Below are positions 5,010 to 42,896 of a stretch of DNA of 64,000 bases, piece by piece; the stretch's first letter is position 1, and every line of letters begins with the position of its first letter. The stretch lies in the NCBI RefSeq assembly GCF_002233755.1, contig NZ_KZ268704.1, forward strand, positions 178,474 to 242,473, given 5' to 3'. Position numbers and translations under genes: made by a program. Under the pieces are notes generated by a model. That model was not told the DNA's origin, searched no databases, and saw only the letters and a program-made list of their open reading frames with translations. The stretch comes from Acinetobacter piscicola (GTDB lineage: Bacteria; Pseudomonadota; Gammaproteobacteria; Pseudomonadales; Moraxellaceae).

Positions 5010-5384
5010 ATGAGTGATTATTCTCCCTTTAAAGGTTCAACAGGTTTAAAACGTATTGTCAATGCCACAGGTTATTCTCTTGCTGGCTTTAAGGCAGCCT
5101 TTCAAAATGAAGCCGCTTTTCGTCAAGTTATTCTGTTAAATGTGATTTTAATTCCAATCACTTTTTTCTTAGATTTGAGTGCTGTTGAACAAGCTTTGAT
5201 GATTGGCGTGTGTTTATTGGCAATTATCGTTGAATTGTTTAATTCTGCCATTGAGGCTGTCGTTGATCGTATTTCTTTAGAACGTCATCCGCTTTCTAAA
5301 AATGCCAAAGATATGGGTAGTGCTGCTCAATTTGTGACTTTAACAATTATTACTGTCACTTGGGCACTGATTTTAATTCGTTAA
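5010..5384 (+). CDS. dgkA: Diacylglycerol kinase, integral membrane type
   Basis: It phosphorylates diacylglycerol to phosphatidic acid in the inner membrane, recycling DAG left by periplasmic glycan and oligosaccharide transfer. The 124 residues match E. coli DgkA (122). The amphipathic N-terminal helix (RIVNATGYSLAGFKAAFQNE) is followed by three membrane helices. The signature ELFNSAIEAVVDRI gives Glu75, Asn78 and the catalytic-base equivalent Glu82, and the cytoplasmic KDMGSAA motif is intact around residues 100-106. It lies 169 bp after glpQ, separated by a terminator, so it is probably a separate unit. No strong ribosome binding site is visible. The same substrate pool is used by the soluble lipid kinase at 15.3-16.2 kb and the wax ester synthase at 51-52.6 kb. 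Confidence 0.95.
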   Translation: MSDYSPFKGSTGLKRIVNATGYSLAGFKAAFQNEAAFRQVILLNVILIPITFFLDLSAVEQALMIGVCLLAIIVELFNSAIEAVVDRISLERHPLSKNAKDMGSAAQFVTLTIITVTWALILIR

Positions 5385-5444
5385 GTACGATATTCATTTA
5401 GAAATTGATTGAAAATCCAAACTAGAATTTATTCATAACATATT

Positions 5445-5476
5445 GATTTGCGAAGCGTATTTCACCTTCGCAAATC
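5445..5476. terminator. Stem-loop between convergent dgkA and receptor gene
   Basis: A perfect 11-bp stem (5445-5455 with 5466-5476) encloses a 10-base loop between convergent stop codons. Neither side has a good T-run, so it may be a bidirectional 3'-end structure, not a classical terminator. Confidence 0.45.
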
Positions 5477-5499
5477 CTTCCATTAAAATAATCTACAAC

Positions 5500-7611
5500 T
5501 TAGTATTTAAACTTCACATTAAAACGAACCATCATTGGATCGCCCCAATTCACCAATTGCGCATTTGGTGTTGTTCCTGCTAAGTATTCTCGATCAAATA
5601 AATTTTTAATGCTTAAACCTGCACCCCATTTTTCCGTTTCATACCCTGCATTCACATCAAATAAAGCATAGCTTGGCAAATCAATATAATCCGTACTACG
5701 TTGCGCAGTGCGTGAACCTTGATAACGAATTCCTGCACCAATATTCCAACCCAATTTATCAGGGCTAAAATAATATTGAGTTGATAGTGTCGCTGCAGTT
5801 TTAGGGACATGATTGGTGCGTTTACCAATTTCACTGGCAGTTAAACTTTCGGTGATTTTTGCTGTTGGAATATAGCTATAGGTTGTCGAAATGTTCCATT
5901 GATCTGTAAGTGCAGCGGCCATTTCGGCTTCAAAGCCTTTAGTCACTTGTTCACCTGTTTGGATAGAGAAATTTCCAGAAGCATCTGCCTCAGTAACGTT
6001 TTTACGCGTTAAATCATAATAAGCAATATAACCTTGCAAACGTTGATCAAAGGCTTGCAGCTTCACTCCAACTTCTGTTTGTTTGCCTTCCTCAGGGTCA
6101 AGTAATAAGCCATTTTCACCTGAATCTGTTACTGGCATAAAAGACGTTGAATAACTGATATAAGGTGCAAACATATCATTCATGCGATACATCACTGAAG
6201 CGCTGCCTGTAAAAGCATTGTCTGAATTTTTGGTGGTTGCATCTTTTAGCACATTATCAATTTCAACTTGTGTCCAATCATGGCGCCCAGATAGCCCAAT
6301 AATCCAATCATCGTCAATTTTAATCGTGTTACGTAAATATAAACCTGTGTATTGGCTATAAGTTATTTCTTCAGAGGGTGTACCTCTTTTTTTAATAATG
6401 ATGTTGCGATAGCTTGGATGATTGGCCTCAAAATCATTAATCGTATCTGTACGACGATAATAATCACTACGCTCACGCATCATGTCTACACCAACCATCA
6501 CATCATAGTTGATATGCCCAAAATTGAAATTACGCTGTAAATTATTATCCAAGGTATAATTCACATCTTGCTTATCTTGATTGTTAATGGCTCGCTTAAT
6601 TGTAGGAAGTACATTTCGACCAGATGCGAGAATCGAATCACCTAATGTCTCAGTTTTAGTTACTGCAAAGTTTTGTTTAAACGTCCAATCATTATCAAAA
6701 TAATGAGCATAATTGGCCCCTAAGCGATACACATCAACATCATAACCATAGTCAGCATCACCAAAGAATAAGCCATGACTATAGTTTTTATATGTTGAAC
6801 TATTTCCATGAGGAATACCCTGCTGACGAAGATATTCACGGCGTTGATAGCTGGCGATTACAGATAAATCGTCTTTTTCACCTAAATCAAAATTATAAGA
6901 TGGTGCAATATAAAAGTTTTTAAAATATACATAATCAGTTGGATCATCCTGATCAGACACTCGCCCGACGACACGGAATGCGCCTTTTTCTGTGTTGTTT
7001 GGTGCATAGTTAAGATCAAAAGTTCCCTCTTTTAAACCATAACTCCCGTAACTTAAGCTGCCTTTAGAAGCGGTTTCAGCTTGCGGGCGTTTTGTGGTTA
7101 AGTTGACTAAGCCCCCTGGTAGCGCTAAGCCAAAACCGACTGATGTTGGGCCTTTGACGACTTCAATTGATTCTAAACCTGAAATATCTTCTGCTCTTAA
7201 AACATTATCTGATGCTTGTACGCGTAAACCGTCAATATAGGTTTGTGAACTCGAAATTTGCCCACGAATAATAAAATCATCCCAGCCACGACGTCCATAT
7301 TGCCCTGAAGTTACACCTGCAACACCTTCAAGTGCTTCTGCTACAGTTTTTGCTTGTTTTTGTTCGATCTGCTGATTGGTGATCACACTAATCGATTGCG
7401 CAGTTTCAAATAATGATGCATCTGAACGAAGTACTGCACTTGCTGTTTTAGCTACATAAGGCTGTTGTTCTTTTTCCGCTTGCACTGTAATTGAAGGAAG
7501 TACCGACGTTGAGATTTGCCCTGCCTTTATATTTAGTTCTGTTTCTGCATAAGTGGTCGATGCCAAAATAACCAGAACTGAAAATGTTAAATAAGATCTG
7601 TTGAATTGCAT
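5500..7611 (-). CDS. TonB-dependent siderophore receptor (FhuA/FpvA-like)
   Basis: This is an outer-membrane beta-barrel that imports a ferric siderophore using TonB-ExbBD energy. A signal peptide (ending near STTYA) precedes a plug domain with the family features LRSDASLFETAQSISVIT, the TVAEALEGVAGV box, FIIRG and IEVVKGPTSVGFG, and the barrel ends with a terminal aromatic (VKFKY). I chose the second ATG (703 residues) because GGTG sits 6 bases before it and the signal peptide then starts at once; an ATG at 7623 would add four residues. A Fur-like site overlaps the upstream region. Architecture is that of hydroxamate/ferrichrome-type receptors, but the ligand cannot be named. No siderophore biosynthesis or ABC import genes are nearby. 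Confidence 0.9.
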   Translation of the reverse strand: MQFNRSYLTFSVLVILASTTYAETELNIKAGQISTSVLPSITVQAEKEQQPYVAKTASAVLRSDASLFETAQSISVITNQQIEQKQAKTVAEALEGVAGVTSGQYGRRGWDDFIIRGQISSSQTYIDGLRVQASDNVLRAEDISGLESIEVVKGPTSVGFGLALPGGLVNLTTKRPQAETASKGSLSYGSYGLKEGTFDLNYAPNNTEKGAFRVVGRVSDQDDPTDYVYFKNFYIAPSYNFDLGEKDDLSVIASYQRREYLRQQGIPHGNSSTYKNYSHGLFFGDADYGYDVDVYRLGANYAHYFDNDWTFKQNFAVTKTETLGDSILASGRNVLPTIKRAINNQDKQDVNYTLDNNLQRNFNFGHINYDVMVGVDMMRERSDYYRRTDTINDFEANHPSYRNIIIKKRGTPSEEITYSQYTGLYLRNTIKIDDDWIIGLSGRHDWTQVEIDNVLKDATTKNSDNAFTGSASVMYRMNDMFAPYISYSTSFMPVTDSGENGLLLDPEEGKQTEVGVKLQAFDQRLQGYIAYYDLTRKNVTEADASGNFSIQTGEQVTKGFEAEMAAALTDQWNISTTYSYIPTAKITESLTASEIGKRTNHVPKTAATLSTQYYFSPDKLGWNIGAGIRYQGSRTAQRSTDYIDLPSYALFDVNAGYETEKWGAGLSIKNLFDREYLAGTTPNAQLVNWGDPMMVRFNVKFKY

Positions 7612-7642
7612 TTGACACACCATTGAAGAAAGTGATGTAAAG

Positions 7643-7661
7643 TATAATCATTTGCATTTAA
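7643..7661 (-). promoter_or_regulatory. Possible Fur box of the siderophore receptor
   Basis: A 19-bp stretch matches the Fur consensus at 11 positions by my count, with its first half (ATAAT) and CATT best conserved. It lies 31-50 bp before the start codon. The match is weak, and the call leans on the regulated gene being an iron receptor. Confidence 0.35.
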
Positions 7662-7818
7662 ATGTATAGGTGTGGCTTTAGAATAATTTATAAAAAGTAT
7701 CTTAACTTTAGAAATTTTAAACAAATTTTATTCATAAAATATGAATATTTATAACTGAATACGATCAAAATCATATGATATTTTTACTTGAAAAAAATAC
7801 AATACATTATCAAATGCA

Positions 7819-7845
7819 AACAGGCTCATATTGAATGAACCTGTT
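7819..7845 (-). terminator. Stem-loop after the small membrane protein gene
   Basis: Ten-base arms (7819-7828 with 7836-7845) pair with one mismatch around a 7-base loop. It lies 20 bp past the stop of the minus-strand gene. No strong T-run follows on that strand. Confidence 0.35.
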
Positions 7846-7864
7846 ATTTTAAATTTTTAAATTC

Positions 7865-8074
7865 TTATTGATTCACTTTAATCGGAATGCAAAGCTCCTC
7901 ATCTTTGGCAAATACAACCGATGTTAAAATCGGAACTGCAAGAATAATGGGAACTGTGAAAATCCAAAGCACAACTGTTAATTCACTCGGAAATAAGGAG
8001 TGAATACCAATAGCAGCCAATATCAAAACTGAAAAAAGAATACTCGCAAAACGAATAACAAATTTGAGTGGCAT
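7865..8074 (-). CDS. Small two-helix membrane protein, unknown function
   Basis: The product has 69 residues. Two hydrophobic segments (about residues 7-28 and 33-55) flank a short polar turn, and a charged tail (AKDEEL) ends the protein, suggesting an inner-membrane hairpin. A strong ribosome binding site (GGGAG, 8 bases before the ATG) supports it as a real gene. It lies between the siderophore receptor and the adhesin, all on the minus strand, but gaps and stem-loops suggest separate transcripts. I do not recognise a family. Confidence 0.65.
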   Translation of the reverse strand: MPLKFVIRFASILFSVLILAAIGIHSLFPSELTVVLWIFTVPIILAVPILTSVVFAKDEELCIPIKVNQ

Positions 8075-8110
8075 AATTTTGCTCCCATAGCATTATAATC
8101 TTTGTCTTTT

Positions 8111-8147
8111 GAGTATATACCCAATATTTTGTTTTGGTTATATACTC
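8111..8147 (-). terminator. Stem-loop after the adhesin gene
   Basis: Nine-base arms GAGTATATA and TATATACTC, extended by a C-C/G-G pair, enclose an AT-rich loop 20 bp past the adhesin stop. It lacks a T-run on the minus strand, so it may be a 3'-end stabiliser or operator. Confidence 0.4.
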
Positions 8148-8166
8148 ATTGTGATTAATTTACTTA

Positions 8167-11100
8167 TTATTTCCCACCAAAAACGTAGGAAACTCCAACT
8201 CTTCCGCCCACTTCGCCACCACCGGCAACACCAAATGCACCACTAAATGATGTACGACCATCTTCAAGCACACTTGTTATGCCTAGAGCACCAGCTGATT
8301 GCCCTTCATAATGCCCCATACCACCAAATACAGCAAATTGGCCTGGCTTCATATTCGGTACAGCCTGTTGAGCCGCAAGTGAGATCGCTACTCCACGATA
8401 CGCATTCGTTTCAATATCATCAAAGCGTCGATTTAAATCTGCAGTGTAAGATCGAAATTGCCCCATATTGACTGCGTCATTATTTGCAACACCGTTGGCA
8501 ACATTAGAGACGACTTTATTTCCTGCATCTACACCCTGTGCAGAGAGCCTTACATCACCAACAGATACCTCGCCTGCTTTTACGGTTGTGGATATAGATG
8601 ATTTCGTTTCTTTACCTGATGCATCTTTTTGGACAATATCTTGGCTCAATAACACTCCAGACACATGATCTACTCGAGTTTCTGTTACAGACTTTACCGA
8701 ACCATCTTTAGCTGTTGAAGTCGCATTACGATTTGAAGTATCTGATTCTAAGATTCCAAATTTATCAACAACTCTCGTATTGGCATTCGCTACTGATGTA
8801 TTGATACCCTCCGAACTAAGAATATTCTCTGAACCGTATACTTTCTCAGTAAAACTTTGATCCGTACGATTCTCAACATCTGAACCTCGAATAATATTTT
8901 GTGCCGTAATTTTACCATCTACTGTTATGGTTTTTTTAGCTTCAGCATATTGACTATTTCTTGTTGAAGAAACAGCTTGCGAAGCTAATAACCCCATATC
9001 AGTATTGTTTACTGTCTCATTCGAAATACTTGATGTTGTATATGTAGAACCTGATTGATCTTTATTGGTTACTTTAGTGTCAGTATTGAACTCAGATATA
9101 ATTTGCTCTGATATTTTTTGATCCGCTTGATAGACCAAATTTTCTAACTTCGTAGTTCCCTTTGTTTCTGTGGTTGACGCATCTAGAACATTTTTATGTG
9201 TATAAGAAGATTCATTTAGCGATGAACTTGATAAAGCATTTTTGCCTTTTTGGTAATCCACAGCAGTTGTTTTGTTGCTTGATGTTGTTTCAATCGTACC
9301 TTTTACGACTGATTCGCCATTTTCATTAAAATCATAAATTTTATTATTCGTACTCACTTCCACTGTCGTGGCTGCATCACGATATTTATCACTTTGATTA
9401 TGATTGTATAAAGTGACATCATTTGTACTTTTTAATTCTGAGCGAGCAACATAACCATCTACGAAGGTATCTTGATTGGTTTGCTGATTTTGTTCAGACT
9501 TTTTATATGCTATAGCACCAGACTGATAAATTTGTTCAGCTACATTTTTACTCTTCGTATTTTGATTAACAACATCTAAATCTGTTGTTTTTAATACTTG
9601 AGTGCTTTTCACTTCTCCCCCACGCTCATCGTATGCTAAGACACCGTTTCGCATTGACAGATCAGTACCATTTTCATCAACACCATAATAAGGTGTAGTC
9701 AAAGTCGATTTCTGACTGCTGAGCACATCTTGAGTAGAGGAAGTATGAGTTGTTCGATCTAAAATATTTTTCCCTTGTGCATATTGCACAATGTCTAAAC
9801 CATTTGATTGATTATCATGGCTTAATACTTTTCCATTCGCATCTGTACTTTTTTGGTTTGATGAAACCTGACTTGAATAGTTCCATACTTTTTCTTGCCC
9901 AGTTTGGTATTGCTGTAATAAAACCTTAGCTGCGGTATCAGATGTATTAATGGTTTTAATAACAACTTGACCTTGCTCATCTAGAACTAAATTACTCGAC
10001 ATATTTTGAGTGTCGTAAGTTTGTTGAATTTCACGATCTAGTGCATTTTTTCCTGCAGAATATAATTTAATGGTTTTATTCTTATCCGATTTATTGGATC
10101 CGTAAATAACCTGACCATCTTTTGATGTTTCAGATTCATCTACATGATCCTGCTCGGTTAAATGATAAGCCAGCTCTTGCCCATAATTAACTTGTTCAGA
10201 TTTATGATTTGAGTTTTTTGCTTTAAAAACAGTATCGACTTGAATGCTTTTATTTTCTGATGCATTTTCTAAAGTCACTTCACTTCGAATGTCTTTCCCT
10301 TCTAAATCAGTCCCAAGAACCACATAATGGCGCTGCTTACCATTTTCATCAATCCAGCTTCGAACATCACTCTCCGTCACATCTTGCCCTGAATTTAAAA
10401 AAATAGGCTGATTAGGATCTAAATAGCCGCCTGACAATGAGCTATAATTACCAATGGTTTTATTAATACTACCCGCTTTAATATTCTGTTGATTTGCTCC
10501 AGATGTATTTTCAGCACTTACAGTCTTGCTTATTAACTGCTGCAGATCAACACTTGATTGCTGACTTATAGCTCGATCAACTTCAATATTTTCCTGCATG
10601 CTCTTTTTATATTCTGCTGAGCCATTTGCTGCTGTTACTACATGCCCGACAAACCCATCAGCATAGTTTTTAACTTCATTATATGTCGCTAATTTGGTTC
10701 TTTTTTGAGTAGCGGTATCCGAATAACGGCTATTTGTACCATTATTAATGATTTCATAATCCTGCCCTTGTTTATCACCAGAGGCATGATGTGTTGCTTG
10801 ATAATTTGCCTGATATAATTCTTCAGAAGATTTATTTTCAATGGTAAATTCACTAATAGGTTGATTATTGGTTAACACCAACTCACCATTTATATTCTTT
10901 TGCAATTGACGATTTGCGTTATGTCGAAGAGTTTTAGAACTTTCTTCTGTACCTATGGGTTGCGCACCATCTTGGTATTTAACATATGTTGTATCCGTAG
11001 AAGTATTATTTATTGCATTAAATTCATCCCATACTGAAGTTCTATTTACTTCATTCAGGTTTGACGACTTTCTACTTTCCTTGATTAAAGATGAATCATC

Positions 11101-12060
11101 GTAAACAATATTATGACTTGAATCTGAATTTTTTCTATTCGTAACTGTAGATTCTTTTTCTAAATATCTTTTATCAGAACTCACTTGAATTGCTACAAAT
11201 TGTCCTTGACCATCAGTTGCATAATCTACATCTGTACTGTTTCCACTTGATGAACGTTCTTGATTGGTTAAAACCTTATTTGGGTCACGGCTAATAATTT
11301 TACCATCTTGGTTAGTCGTAGATTTATATGTCGCATTTTTAGATTGAGATTGGTTAGCTCCACCTTCGGCAATATAAACATGAGCACTACTTTCTATAAC
11401 GGGTTGCCCATTGGCATCGCGTTTTTGAACACTATTAAAATTTGATTGCTGGTACTGCGATTCATTCAGCGTATCTAATGCAACGTTATTTAAGTATTTT
11501 GTATTTGATTGACGACTATAATAGGTACTACTTCTCGCATCTTTAACTTTTGTTAAATCATCCGCAGTAAAATCAAATGATGAATCATTTAAACGACGTT
11601 CTGAATTTGCAATCTCGTTACCACTTGCATCTAATCCGACCTGAGTATTGGCTTTACGTGTAACCGTACCTGTGCTGCTAAAGTTACTATTAATATTATC
11701 ATAATGTGAAATTTCATTTTCACCCACTTGGCTTGATGAATAATATCTATTTCCATATAAATCTGCCCGACGTGTTTCATCATAACTATATTGTTGATAA
11801 TTTTGCCCAGAACTAGACGTTTGACTTCCTTTTATTTTTGTCCCTGTAGATAAAATAGTATTTGAATTTAAACTATCGTTTTGATAATTCTGATCGTACA
11901 TATTAAAATTGGGGTTAAATTGATAACTATTTGTTCCACTGGTTTGTTGATAATTATTTCCTAAGTTTTGATCATAGGCAGTTTGATAAGTAAGGTCTGC
12001 AGCTGCATAACCTGTTATTGAAGATAATGCTAATACGAGTGTAGTTTGTTTTAACTTCAT
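8167..12060 (-). CDS. Trimeric autotransporter adhesin with atypical passenger
   Basis: This is a surface adhesin of the type Vc (YadA) pathway: three chains form one C-terminal beta-barrel that exports the fibre. It has 1297 residues from the ATG at 12060, which has GGGA upstream and begins a clean signal peptide (MKLKQTTLVLALSSITGYAAA). An in-frame TTG at 12075 is less likely. The C-terminus has the neck motif GVANNDAVNMGQ (about residues 1190-1202), a short coiled coil and a roughly 75-residue YadA anchor ending VSYVF. The passenger between about 25 and 1180 shows no canonical YadA-head, Trp-ring or GIN repeats. It is instead rich in Ser, Asn, Gln, Thr and Tyr, apparently lacks Cys, and repeatedly uses turns of the form D/N-x-x-G (DANGKVL, DEQGQVV, DENGTDL, NENGESV) with several Y-x-x-G-K-N-x-L segments. 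Adhesion is inferred from the anchor; the ligand is unknown. Confidence 0.85.
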   Translation of the reverse strand: MKLKQTTLVLALSSITGYAAADLTYQTAYDQNLGNNYQQTSGTNSYQFNPNFNMYDQNYQNDSLNSNTILSTGTKIKGSQTSSSGQNYQQYSYDETRRADLYGNRYYSSSQVGENEISHYDNINSNFSSTGTVTRKANTQVGLDASGNEIANSERRLNDSSFDFTADDLTKVKDARSSTYYSRQSNTKYLNNVALDTLNESQYQQSNFNSVQKRDANGQPVIESSAHVYIAEGGANQSQSKNATYKSTTNQDGKIISRDPNKVLTNQERSSSGNSTDVDYATDGQGQFVAIQVSSDKRYLEKESTVTNRKNSDSSHNIVYDDSSLIKESRKSSNLNEVNRTSVWDEFNAINNTSTDTTYVKYQDGAQPIGTEESSKTLRHNANRQLQKNINGELVLTNNQPISEFTIENKSSEELYQANYQATHHASGDKQGQDYEIINNGTNSRYSDTATQKRTKLATYNEVKNYADGFVGHVVTAANGSAEYKKSMQENIEVDRAISQQSSVDLQQLISKTVSAENTSGANQQNIKAGSINKTIGNYSSLSGGYLDPNQPIFLNSGQDVTESDVRSWIDENGKQRHYVVLGTDLEGKDIRSEVTLENASENKSIQVDTVFKAKNSNHKSEQVNYGQELAYHLTEQDHVDESETSKDGQVIYGSNKSDKNKTIKLYSAGKNALDREIQQTYDTQNMSSNLVLDEQGQVVIKTINTSDTAAKVLLQQYQTGQEKVWNYSSQVSSNQKSTDANGKVLSHDNQSNGLDIVQYAQGKNILDRTTHTSSTQDVLSSQKSTLTTPYYGVDENGTDLSMRNGVLAYDERGGEVKSTQVLKTTDLDVVNQNTKSKNVAEQIYQSGAIAYKKSEQNQQTNQDTFVDGYVARSELKSTNDVTLYNHNQSDKYRDAATTVEVSTNNKIYDFNENGESVVKGTIETTSSNKTTAVDYQKGKNALSSSSLNESSYTHKNVLDASTTETKGTTKLENLVYQADQKISEQIISEFNTDTKVTNKDQSGSTYTTSSISNETVNNTDMGLLASQAVSSTRNSQYAEAKKTITVDGKITAQNIIRGSDVENRTDQSFTEKVYGSENILSSEGINTSVANANTRVVDKFGILESDTSNRNATSTAKDGSVKSVTETRVDHVSGVLLSQDIVQKDASGKETKSSISTTVKAGEVSVGDVRLSAQGVDAGNKVVSNVANGVANNDAVNMGQFRSYTADLNRRFDDIETNAYRGVAISLAAQQAVPNMKPGQFAVFGGMGHYEGQSAGALGITSVLEDGRTSFSGAFGVAGGGEVGGRVGVSYVFGGK

Positions 12061-12241
12061 CAATATAATTCCCAAAGTTTTATCGATTATTAAATTTTTT
12101 GTTTTGTGCCTTTTAAATATAGAAATGACACACTTACTGAATAGTATAAAATACTAGTTTTATTATGTAATTTAATCAATGAATTTCGTTATTTCTTTTC
12201 TAAGAATAAATTTTTAAAGTTCAAGAAATTTAAATATTGAT

Positions 12242-12273
12242 AAAAAAATCCCTGCTAAAAAGCAGGGATTTTT
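12242..12273 (-). terminator. Rho-independent terminator after groL
   Basis: ATCCCTGCT and AGCAGGGAT pair around a 4-base A loop, flanked by A and T runs, so it could work in both directions. It lies just past the groL stop. Confidence 0.85.
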
Positions 12274-12295
12274 ATGAAGCGGAGCTTAGAATGAA

Positions 12296-13969
<1,674 letters not shown>

Positions 13970-42418: not shown

Positions 42419-42516
42419 GTTTGATGGTGTTCACATTTTAACCTCGCTTACGAGAGTTAACACTTATTTACGTGAATACCAATGAAATTACAGATGAGAA
42501 CATCTACTATCTACTT

Positions 42517-42622
42517 AAGTTATGGATCTTCCCCAAAATTCATAACATTTCTCCTTGACCGAACTGTGAAAGCAGATTCGTTGTTCTACGCAATGATCAC
42601 CCCAATCGTTGCGTATTTTTTT
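42517..42622 (+). ncRNA. Candidate small RNA downstream of trpS (Aar-like position)
   Basis: A strong terminator (stem 42587-42597 with 42605-42615, 7-base loop, then seven T) stands in a 543-bp gap with no open frame. The trpS transcript already ends at 42418, so this needs its own transcript. A promoter fits 42482-42510: ATGAAA, 17 bp, TACTAT, giving about 105 nt. From memory, A. baylyi encodes the Hfq-dependent sRNA Aar between trpS and sucD; here the position after trpS agrees. I cannot compare the sequences. Confidence 0.55.
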
Positions 42623-42896
42623 GTCTTTTGTTTTCATCCGTAAAACAGCTTCATTTATAAGCAATACTTGAATAAAACGCAAGCAATAGTTTTGAATGCA
42701 TTTTTTTAACTTAATTTTTCTTAATAAAATATAACATATTGATTTTAATTATTATAAGCTGATAATTAAATTGCAATCTTTTGATAAAACCGATAATCTT
42801 TATCTATTAATTGAATTAATTAATGATTTTTTTATTATTTAATTCATATTAAAGCGTATTTTTATAAGAAAACTAAACAATATCGGGCACAACAAT
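42623..42896. other. AT-rich region upstream of yqiJ
   Basis: Very AT-rich with no gene; presumably the promoter region of the yqiJ-yqiK operon. Confidence 0.35.

Follow-up and report, generated by a model that had tools for sequence, protein, structure and literature searches.

Here we describe a trimeric autotransporter (TAA) gene of Acinetobacter piscicola, situated in a window of 64,000 nucleotides (NCBI RefSeq assembly GCF_002233755.1, contig NZ_KZ268704.1, positions 178,474 to 242,473 of the forward strand; the window is the whole stretch analysed, and all coordinates below refer to it). Its protein combines an ordinary neck and membrane anchor with a passenger of about 1150 residues in which no described domain was recognised, and which is predicted (by AlphaFold2, AF2, as a single chain) to form a very long beta-meander. 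The gene and its parts are the following (residue numbers are those of the protein; pLDDT, predicted local distance difference test):

8167..12060, (-) strand: trimeric autotransporter gene, ATG at 12060, stop at 8167, 1297 aa
11998..12060, (-) strand: hydrophobic start resembling a signal peptide, residues 1-21 (judged by eye)
10801..11952, (-) strand: N-terminal strand-rich region, residues 37-420 (AF2 model; most long strands of 13-28 residues)
10261..10797, (-) strand: middle region, residues 422-600 (delimited by mostly low pLDDT in AF2 and by conservation windows)
8578..10233, (-) strand: C-terminal meander, residues 610-1161 (AF2; turns labelled A or B)
10039..10062, (-) strand: A-turn motif YSAGKNAL, residues 667-674
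9760..9783, (-) strand: A-turn motif YAQGKNIL, residues 760-767
9232..9255, (-) strand: A-turn motif YQKGKNAL, residues 936-943
9589..9696, (-) strand: long insert separating two strands at a B-type turn, residues 789-824 (AF2)
8410..8511, (-) strand: neck, residues 1184-1217
8179..8349, (-) strand: membrane anchor, residues 1238-1294

The first-pass annotation of this DNA, made without database searches, had called the neck and YadA anchor canonical and had found none of the YadA-head, Trp-ring, GIN or FGG motifs in the passenger; the observation was confirmed. The neck was matched by Pfam YadA_stalk (E 7.3e-8), VompD (4lgo) and BadA (3d9x), the anchor by Pfam YadA_anchor (E 5.4e-10; also found in all ten members of the passenger family) and AtaA (9vnj, E 3.8e-7), and the PDB sequence matches (AtaA, VompD, BadA, Hia and others) centred on these two elements, by whose sequence the protein is a type Vc trimeric autotransporter. 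Upstream of the neck no credible match was obtained in Pfam, NCBIfam or the PDB sequences: beyond neck and anchor the protein reached two further Pfam families, both weakly (E 0.19 and 0.72), and it had no match in NCBIfam. Across the ten members just four other Pfam families appeared at E 0.1 (E of at least 0.019, one or two members each), and YadA_head (PF05658) matched none of the ten at that threshold. A profile of the passenger found no PDB sequence at E 1, and one of residues 600-1190 none at E 10. BadA (3d9x) aligned to residues 1084-1209 (E 0.017) and, when residues 1060-1215 were searched alone, with E 1.1e-4, the neck being the strong part of both alignments; residues 1060-1169 alone had no TAA match among PDB sequences. 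Two PHROG matches (E 1.4e-4 and 0.0028) were recorded, each in one of the ten members. We stress that GIN and Trp-ring domains of TAAs are described as escaping sequence comparison (PMC2483945). Among the open-access literature matches listed, no title or start of an abstract described this passenger or a groEL-linked TAA locus.

The distribution of the passenger is narrow. When the full protein was searched against 175 genomes of the genus, nine relatives beyond its own genome were recovered that covered most of the passenger (four at 45-47% identity, four at 34%, and one, G107, matched in two pieces). In the family, a passenger-only profile matched 10 of 348 genomes, and these belong to a single genus of the 16, which is taken to be Acinetobacter on account of gene content and an Aar small RNA of the window. 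In the genomes of the order (390), class (369) and phylum (299), sampled evenly from larger groups, this profile found its own genome only. For the passenger, tblastn gave no match among phage (50,697) and plasmid (72,556) records, and not one of the 49 pattern matches from viral contigs could be confirmed, so that a phage or plasmid origin was rejected for want of a match in any of these sets. A match in Wallbacteria (L031; 30% over 135 residues, 28% over 152) was taken as chance, because the L031 protein is unlike the query around the matched stretch (by eye).

Within the genus the passenger keeps its size: 1125-1154 residues in eight of the nine relatives, at a mean identity of 35% between clades. 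G107, at 927 residues, has no counterpart of a middle block of approximately 190 residues, near four hairpin lengths (alignment, judged by eye). The ratio of nonsynonymous to synonymous substitution rates (dN/dS; calculated, like the profile self-comparison and the comparison of halves below, on nine sequences with G107 left out) was 0.17-0.26 in six of six pairs, which share members, and 0.00-0.07 for the anchor; by these sequence measures the passenger is under purifying selection, yet freer to change than the anchor. The most conserved 20-residue window of the passenger (residues 578-597) and the fourth (480-499) lie in or at the edge of the middle region, and serine, asparagine, threonine and glutamine make up 40% of residues 24-1150. 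Promoter-like and terminator-like sites were no more frequent than in shuffles. Taken at the level of sequence, the passenger is a real, conserved class without recognised domains, carried by an ordinary TAA anchor.

The first-pass annotation had further suggested a fibre built of a distinct beta-hairpin unit, on the grounds of two recurring motifs, and had named internal repeats as a check. Repeats were indeed found: comparison of the passenger profile with itself (hhalign) gave off-diagonal scores of 85.1 and 79.3, against maxima of 20.8 in 30 column-shuffled self-comparisons and 27.4 in 30 real-versus-shuffled comparisons, and a score of 32.1 for the reversed profile. The N-terminal half (residues 24-515) scored 37.1 against the C-terminal half (600-1160), above the maximum of 60 shuffles (25.2) and the reversed score (14.5), and the two halves are therefore related, weakly. 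As for the motifs, more than a dozen D/N-x-x-G turns had been claimed at spacings of 50-70 residues; the number held (18 in residues 24-1150, with 11.1 +/- 3.0 in shuffles, 30 of 2000 of which reach 18, an enrichment modestly above chance), and the spacing did not, the predicted turns of the C-terminal half lying about 21 residues apart (mean centre spacing 20.9, omitting the 57.5-residue gap across the long insert) and those of the same parity 33-51 apart (85 across one insert). The several Y-x-x-G-K-N-x-L segments were recovered as three strict copies (reached in 0 of 2000 shuffles), and the broader Y-x-x-G-[KQE]-[NE] occurs four times against 0.11 expected (again 0 of 2000). In the nine relatives the counts are 13-22 for [DN]xxG, 0-5 for the broader and 0-3 for the strict Y motif, and G107 is devoid of either Y motif.

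In the AF2 model of residues 600-1190 (ten sequences; mean pLDDT 88.8, predicted template modelling score 0.73) the meander comprises 25 strands with a mean length of 16.2 residues, mostly joined by short turns, for which reason consecutive strands were taken as antiparallel. The labels A and B denote parity along the chain and are independent of motif. Within residues 610-1161 all four copies of Y-x-x-G-[KQE]-[NE] sit at A turns, and seven of eight D/N-x-x-G at or beside B turns (the remaining one, DKFG with G1102, at an A turn). Y-x-x-G-[KQE]-[NE] marks only 4 of 12 A turns, the remaining turns having mostly looser versions or neither, and the hairpin unit is accordingly loose. Glycines conserved in at least eight of ten relatives fall in predicted loops in 15 of 18 cases (loops make up 26% of residues 610-1161). 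Identity is 0.53 near A turns (within four residues of the turn), 0.42 near B turns and 0.35 mid-strand, and the hydrophobic fraction (VILMFYW) follows with 0.37, 0.32 and 0.14; turn edge and mid-strand differ in hydrophobicity for either kind of turn (0 of 5000 permutations reach either contrast), A and B do not (0.17). These near and mid groups include the B turn that carries the long insert (788-825); the distance table and the loop composition do not. Model, profile self-comparison and motif placement thus agree, at the level of single-chain computation, with the suggested hairpin unit.

The N-terminal part was predicted less uniformly. The model of residues 22-640 has a mean pLDDT of 72.0 (models from 72.0 to 67.9), with long strands over residues 37-420 (pLDDT mostly 80-98, 66-77 in a few blocks); the N-terminal part thereby adds approximately 17 strands of at least eight residues to the 25 of the C-terminal meander. 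Residues 596-640, poor in this model, are largely good in that of 600-1190. In structural comparisons Foldseek found no PDB match at E 0.001 or better and one among predicted viral proteins (A0A2U7PAL4_2, E 8.4e-4, root-mean-square deviation, rmsd, 27.6), and VIA-align (the sole comparison used for the N-terminal model) ranked apoB-100 (9coo_A; Z 19.3, 387 residues, rmsd 9.9) and outer-membrane barrels (Z 10-15) highest. Given the models, these matches probably reflect a shared long-meander arrangement and not kinship. TAA heads are absent from both VIA lists (50 rows each), an absence that does not argue for different folds.

Our favoured interpretation, which we hold with somewhat more confidence than doubt, is that the protein is a type Vc autotransporter whose passenger would form a very long, largely polar beta-meander within a transverse-prism fibre. 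The chains would be exported through the anchor barrel and three of them would then fold outside into a wide fibre, each chain supplying one face, with its strands transverse to the fibre axis, as they are in the GIN beta-prism. Chain-chain contacts may be provided by the hydrophobic residues close to the turns, and the polar mid-strands may point toward the solvent. At approximately 4.8 A per strand the fibre would measure about 20 nm in length, wider and shorter than if the same chain formed a coiled coil. Necks are said to mark the transition between a wide beta-prism and a narrow coiled coil (PMC2483945), and because of this role a neck following the beta region fits a transverse prism. 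The function would most likely be surface attachment or self-association, by analogy with other TAAs, and the conserved residues 578-597 and 480-499 are the first candidates for a putative binding site.

Several observations weigh against this interpretation. It is a likely reading of single-chain predictions from ten sequences, and we infer the three-chain arrangement beyond what such a model contains. The five models of residues 600-1190 are spread (pLDDT 88.8, 88.8, 79.6, 77.5 and 64.7), and residues 422-451 and 483-562 are poorly predicted in the model of 22-640. Cross-strand pairs in the predicted register show a hydrophobicity correlation of -0.004 and as many like as opposite charges; an opposite-charge excess (1.94) appears only at a one-residue shift, and a shift of -5 gives 1.88 too. 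Indel sites (counted on the eight relatives other than G107) do not cluster significantly near turns, 9 of 16 lying within two residues of a loop against a background of 44%. Strict D/N-x-x-G occupies only 6 of 12 B turns, the link of tyrosine to strand ends is only loose (no more than one residue away in 6 of 23 cases, against a background of 13%), and a unit hidden Markov model built from the C-terminal half matched nothing in the N-terminal half. The neck itself was matched by YadA_stalk in only five of the ten members, and in the alignment of four relatives (L006-L009) it is deleted and the passenger kept. The main doubt, as far as the models go, is over-confidence on repeats: AF2 is reported to yield confident but unrealistic beta-solenoids for perfect repeats (PMC11795689), and even though the repeats of this passenger are much diverged the warning still applies.

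This doubt leads directly to the reading that AF2 has over-folded repeats rich in serine, threonine and asparagine, and that what it modelled is a long polar spacer, for the most part disordered or with only loose order. The polar composition and the silent register would suit such a spacer, as would the documented AF2 behaviour on perfect repeats; nevertheless, a spacer would hardly be expected to keep its length in eight of nine relatives at so low an identity, to place its conserved glycines in predicted loops, or to combine repeats detectable by profile with the observed dN/dS (disorder without repeats, the outcome that the first-pass annotation had set against its own proposal, was not what emerged), and we regard this explanation as unlikely, if deserving of serious attention. 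The negative register test would equally follow if AF2 had placed the strands rightly and paired them wrongly, as in an interleaved trimeric fold (a triple beta-helix or a weave akin to the Trp-ring), where pairing between chains is invisible to single-chain prediction; the BadA Trp-ring domain is described as interleaved (PMC2483945). However, turns that are short and recur roughly every 21 residues are more in keeping with intra-chain hairpins, and GIN is presented in the same source as a TAA prism that is not interleaved, so that we judge interleaving to be improbable. That the passenger should be an amphipathic sheet or barrel turned toward lipid is, in our opinion, very improbable. ApoB-100 and outer-membrane barrels, as the best structural matches, would point to it, but their rmsd is large, Foldseek returned no PDB match at its threshold, and the hydrophobicity of the two strand faces (residues 610-1161) does not differ beyond the level of shuffles (the observed value is reached in 473 of 2000), which counts against both a membrane barrel and a sandwich built on a hydrophobic core.

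Among known systems, the GIN domain of BadA and Hia is close to the proposed polar meander, being described as a non-interleaved meander prism perpendicular to the trimer axis and followed by a neck (PMC2483945; the orientation of our passenger is conjectural). It differs in scale, with five strands in 32 residues (435-466; PMC2483945) as opposed to 25 strands averaging 16 residues in one half of the passenger alone, and the passenger has no sequence match to it apart from the neck and the preceding stretch. We read the passenger as a GIN-style transverse prism of giant size, but not as a member of GIN. The BpaC head is likewise a long TAA beta domain with polar residues in place of a hydrophobic core, but it is reported as a left-handed parallel beta-roll (PMC9543794), whereas the strands of our passenger are long, are read as antiparallel and belong to a protein without a YadA_head match. 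AtaA (Acinetobacter sp. Tol 5) is a TAA of the same genus with a related anchor, although its sequence match is limited to anchor and neck and leaves the passenger unmatched. The domains of AtaA are Ylhead, Trp-ring, GIN and FGG. A polar antiparallel single-layer beta-sheet exposed on both faces is found in Borrelia OspA, as a short segment of a monomeric lipoprotein; the proposed sheet would be similar in its polar antiparallel strands and exposed faces, and OspA was not among the matches listed in the PDB sequence, Foldseek and VIA comparisons.

The genomic setting of the gene was also examined. Its neighbours in the window are:

12296..13942, (-) strand: upstream neighbour, which from its sequence we take to be groEL
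5500..7623, (-) strand: TonB-dependent receptor, on the TAA side of dgkA (between both)
5010..5384, (+) strand: downstream neighbour, a dgkA-like gene (presumably dgkA)

By an anchor profile at E 1e-20, 42 of the 175 genus members carry this anchor subfamily (groEL was found in 174), and the loci of 38 of the 42 were compared (G008, G022, G096 and G142 were left out). TAA and groEL occurred in the same fetched stretch in 29 of the 38. Single-linkage clustering of the 42 passengers gave 11 clusters, nine of which occur at groEL, one of these only as an 89-aa remnant; its 'passenger' (L100, 89 aa in all) is a slice of the anchor, and this cluster carries no meaning. Clusters overlap, as a 260-residue block at 67-68% identity is common to L055, L057 and L061 (two clusters). 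All ten members of the cluster of the window lie at groEL. The TAA of L055 (3209-6748), at the same locus, carries YadA_head repeats and a Bactofilin match (PF04519, E 1.3e-8).

Four pairs of loci with different passengers (L047/L059, L043/L055, L043/L095 and L050/L054) are similar in DNA through groEL, have no similarity across nearly all of the passenger, and regain it at the anchor (254-326 aligned bases) and, in three of the four, downstream as well; in a pair with the same passenger (L047/L048) the DNA aligns through most of the gene. Between L047 and L059, GroEL is identical to the nearest percent and the anchors are 85% identical, with no passenger similarity detected, and the anchor of L047 is only 66% identical to that of the window, though their passengers are related. 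In this case the anchor goes with the chromosome rather than with the passenger, the pattern to be expected if passengers are replaced and the anchor stays in place. Other anchors are less clear: that of L051 is 96% identical to L061 (from another cluster), and the anchor of the window shares 77% identity with that of L043 and 72-75% with those of L055 and L052. Judging from these alignments, the passenger acts like a cassette that can be swapped at the groEL-dgkA locus, where related species keep the flanks and the anchor; this interval, which spans 5010-13942 in the window and was compared in loci L043-L062 and L093-L109, has related anchors with differing passengers from one species to another. 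A bolder and tentative proposal, to which we give rather less than an even chance, joins fold and locus: the approximately 40 long polar strands of each chain would constitute one continuous transverse antiparallel sheet and thus the whole fibre, a giant hydrophilic beta-prism in which hydrophobic turn edges replace a hydrophobic core, evolved within Acinetobacter and carried as a cassette on the conserved anchor at groEL.

TAA passengers have been portrayed as assemblies drawn from a recurrent set of head and stalk domains, none of which was recognised in the approximately 1150 residues considered here. A polar sheet without a hydrophobic core, as predicted, would if true add a fibre architecture to this repertoire and offer a naturally occurring model of extensive beta structures made of a single layer. 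The groEL-dgkA locus, for its part, may serve as a comparative system for the replacement of adhesin passengers with the secretion anchor kept.

Further observations concern the surroundings of these genes. In 26 of the 29 groEL-linked loci there is a small gene that matches HTH_3 weakly (neither of the two copies tested reaches the Pfam cut-off), on the strand opposite to the TAA and between TAA and groEL in the loci listed (e.g., L043 6254-6622 (-) and L047 5330-5728 (-)); it is absent from L055, L101 and the window (12076-12295), and we regard it as a candidate regulator of the TAA. In genome G099 (L100, 3378-3647) the groEL-linked TAA is down to an 89-aa open reading frame that holds the anchor, probably a remnant. 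Relatives of the TonB-dependent receptor (75-77%) adjoin TAAs in L057 and L096. Tandem pairs of TAAs, each of about 500-540 aa and with this type of anchor, were found elsewhere (L060, L108 and L109), with no groEL in the fetched stretch. Farther along the window, an Aar small RNA lies at 42446-42636 (Rfam RF02375, 137 bits).

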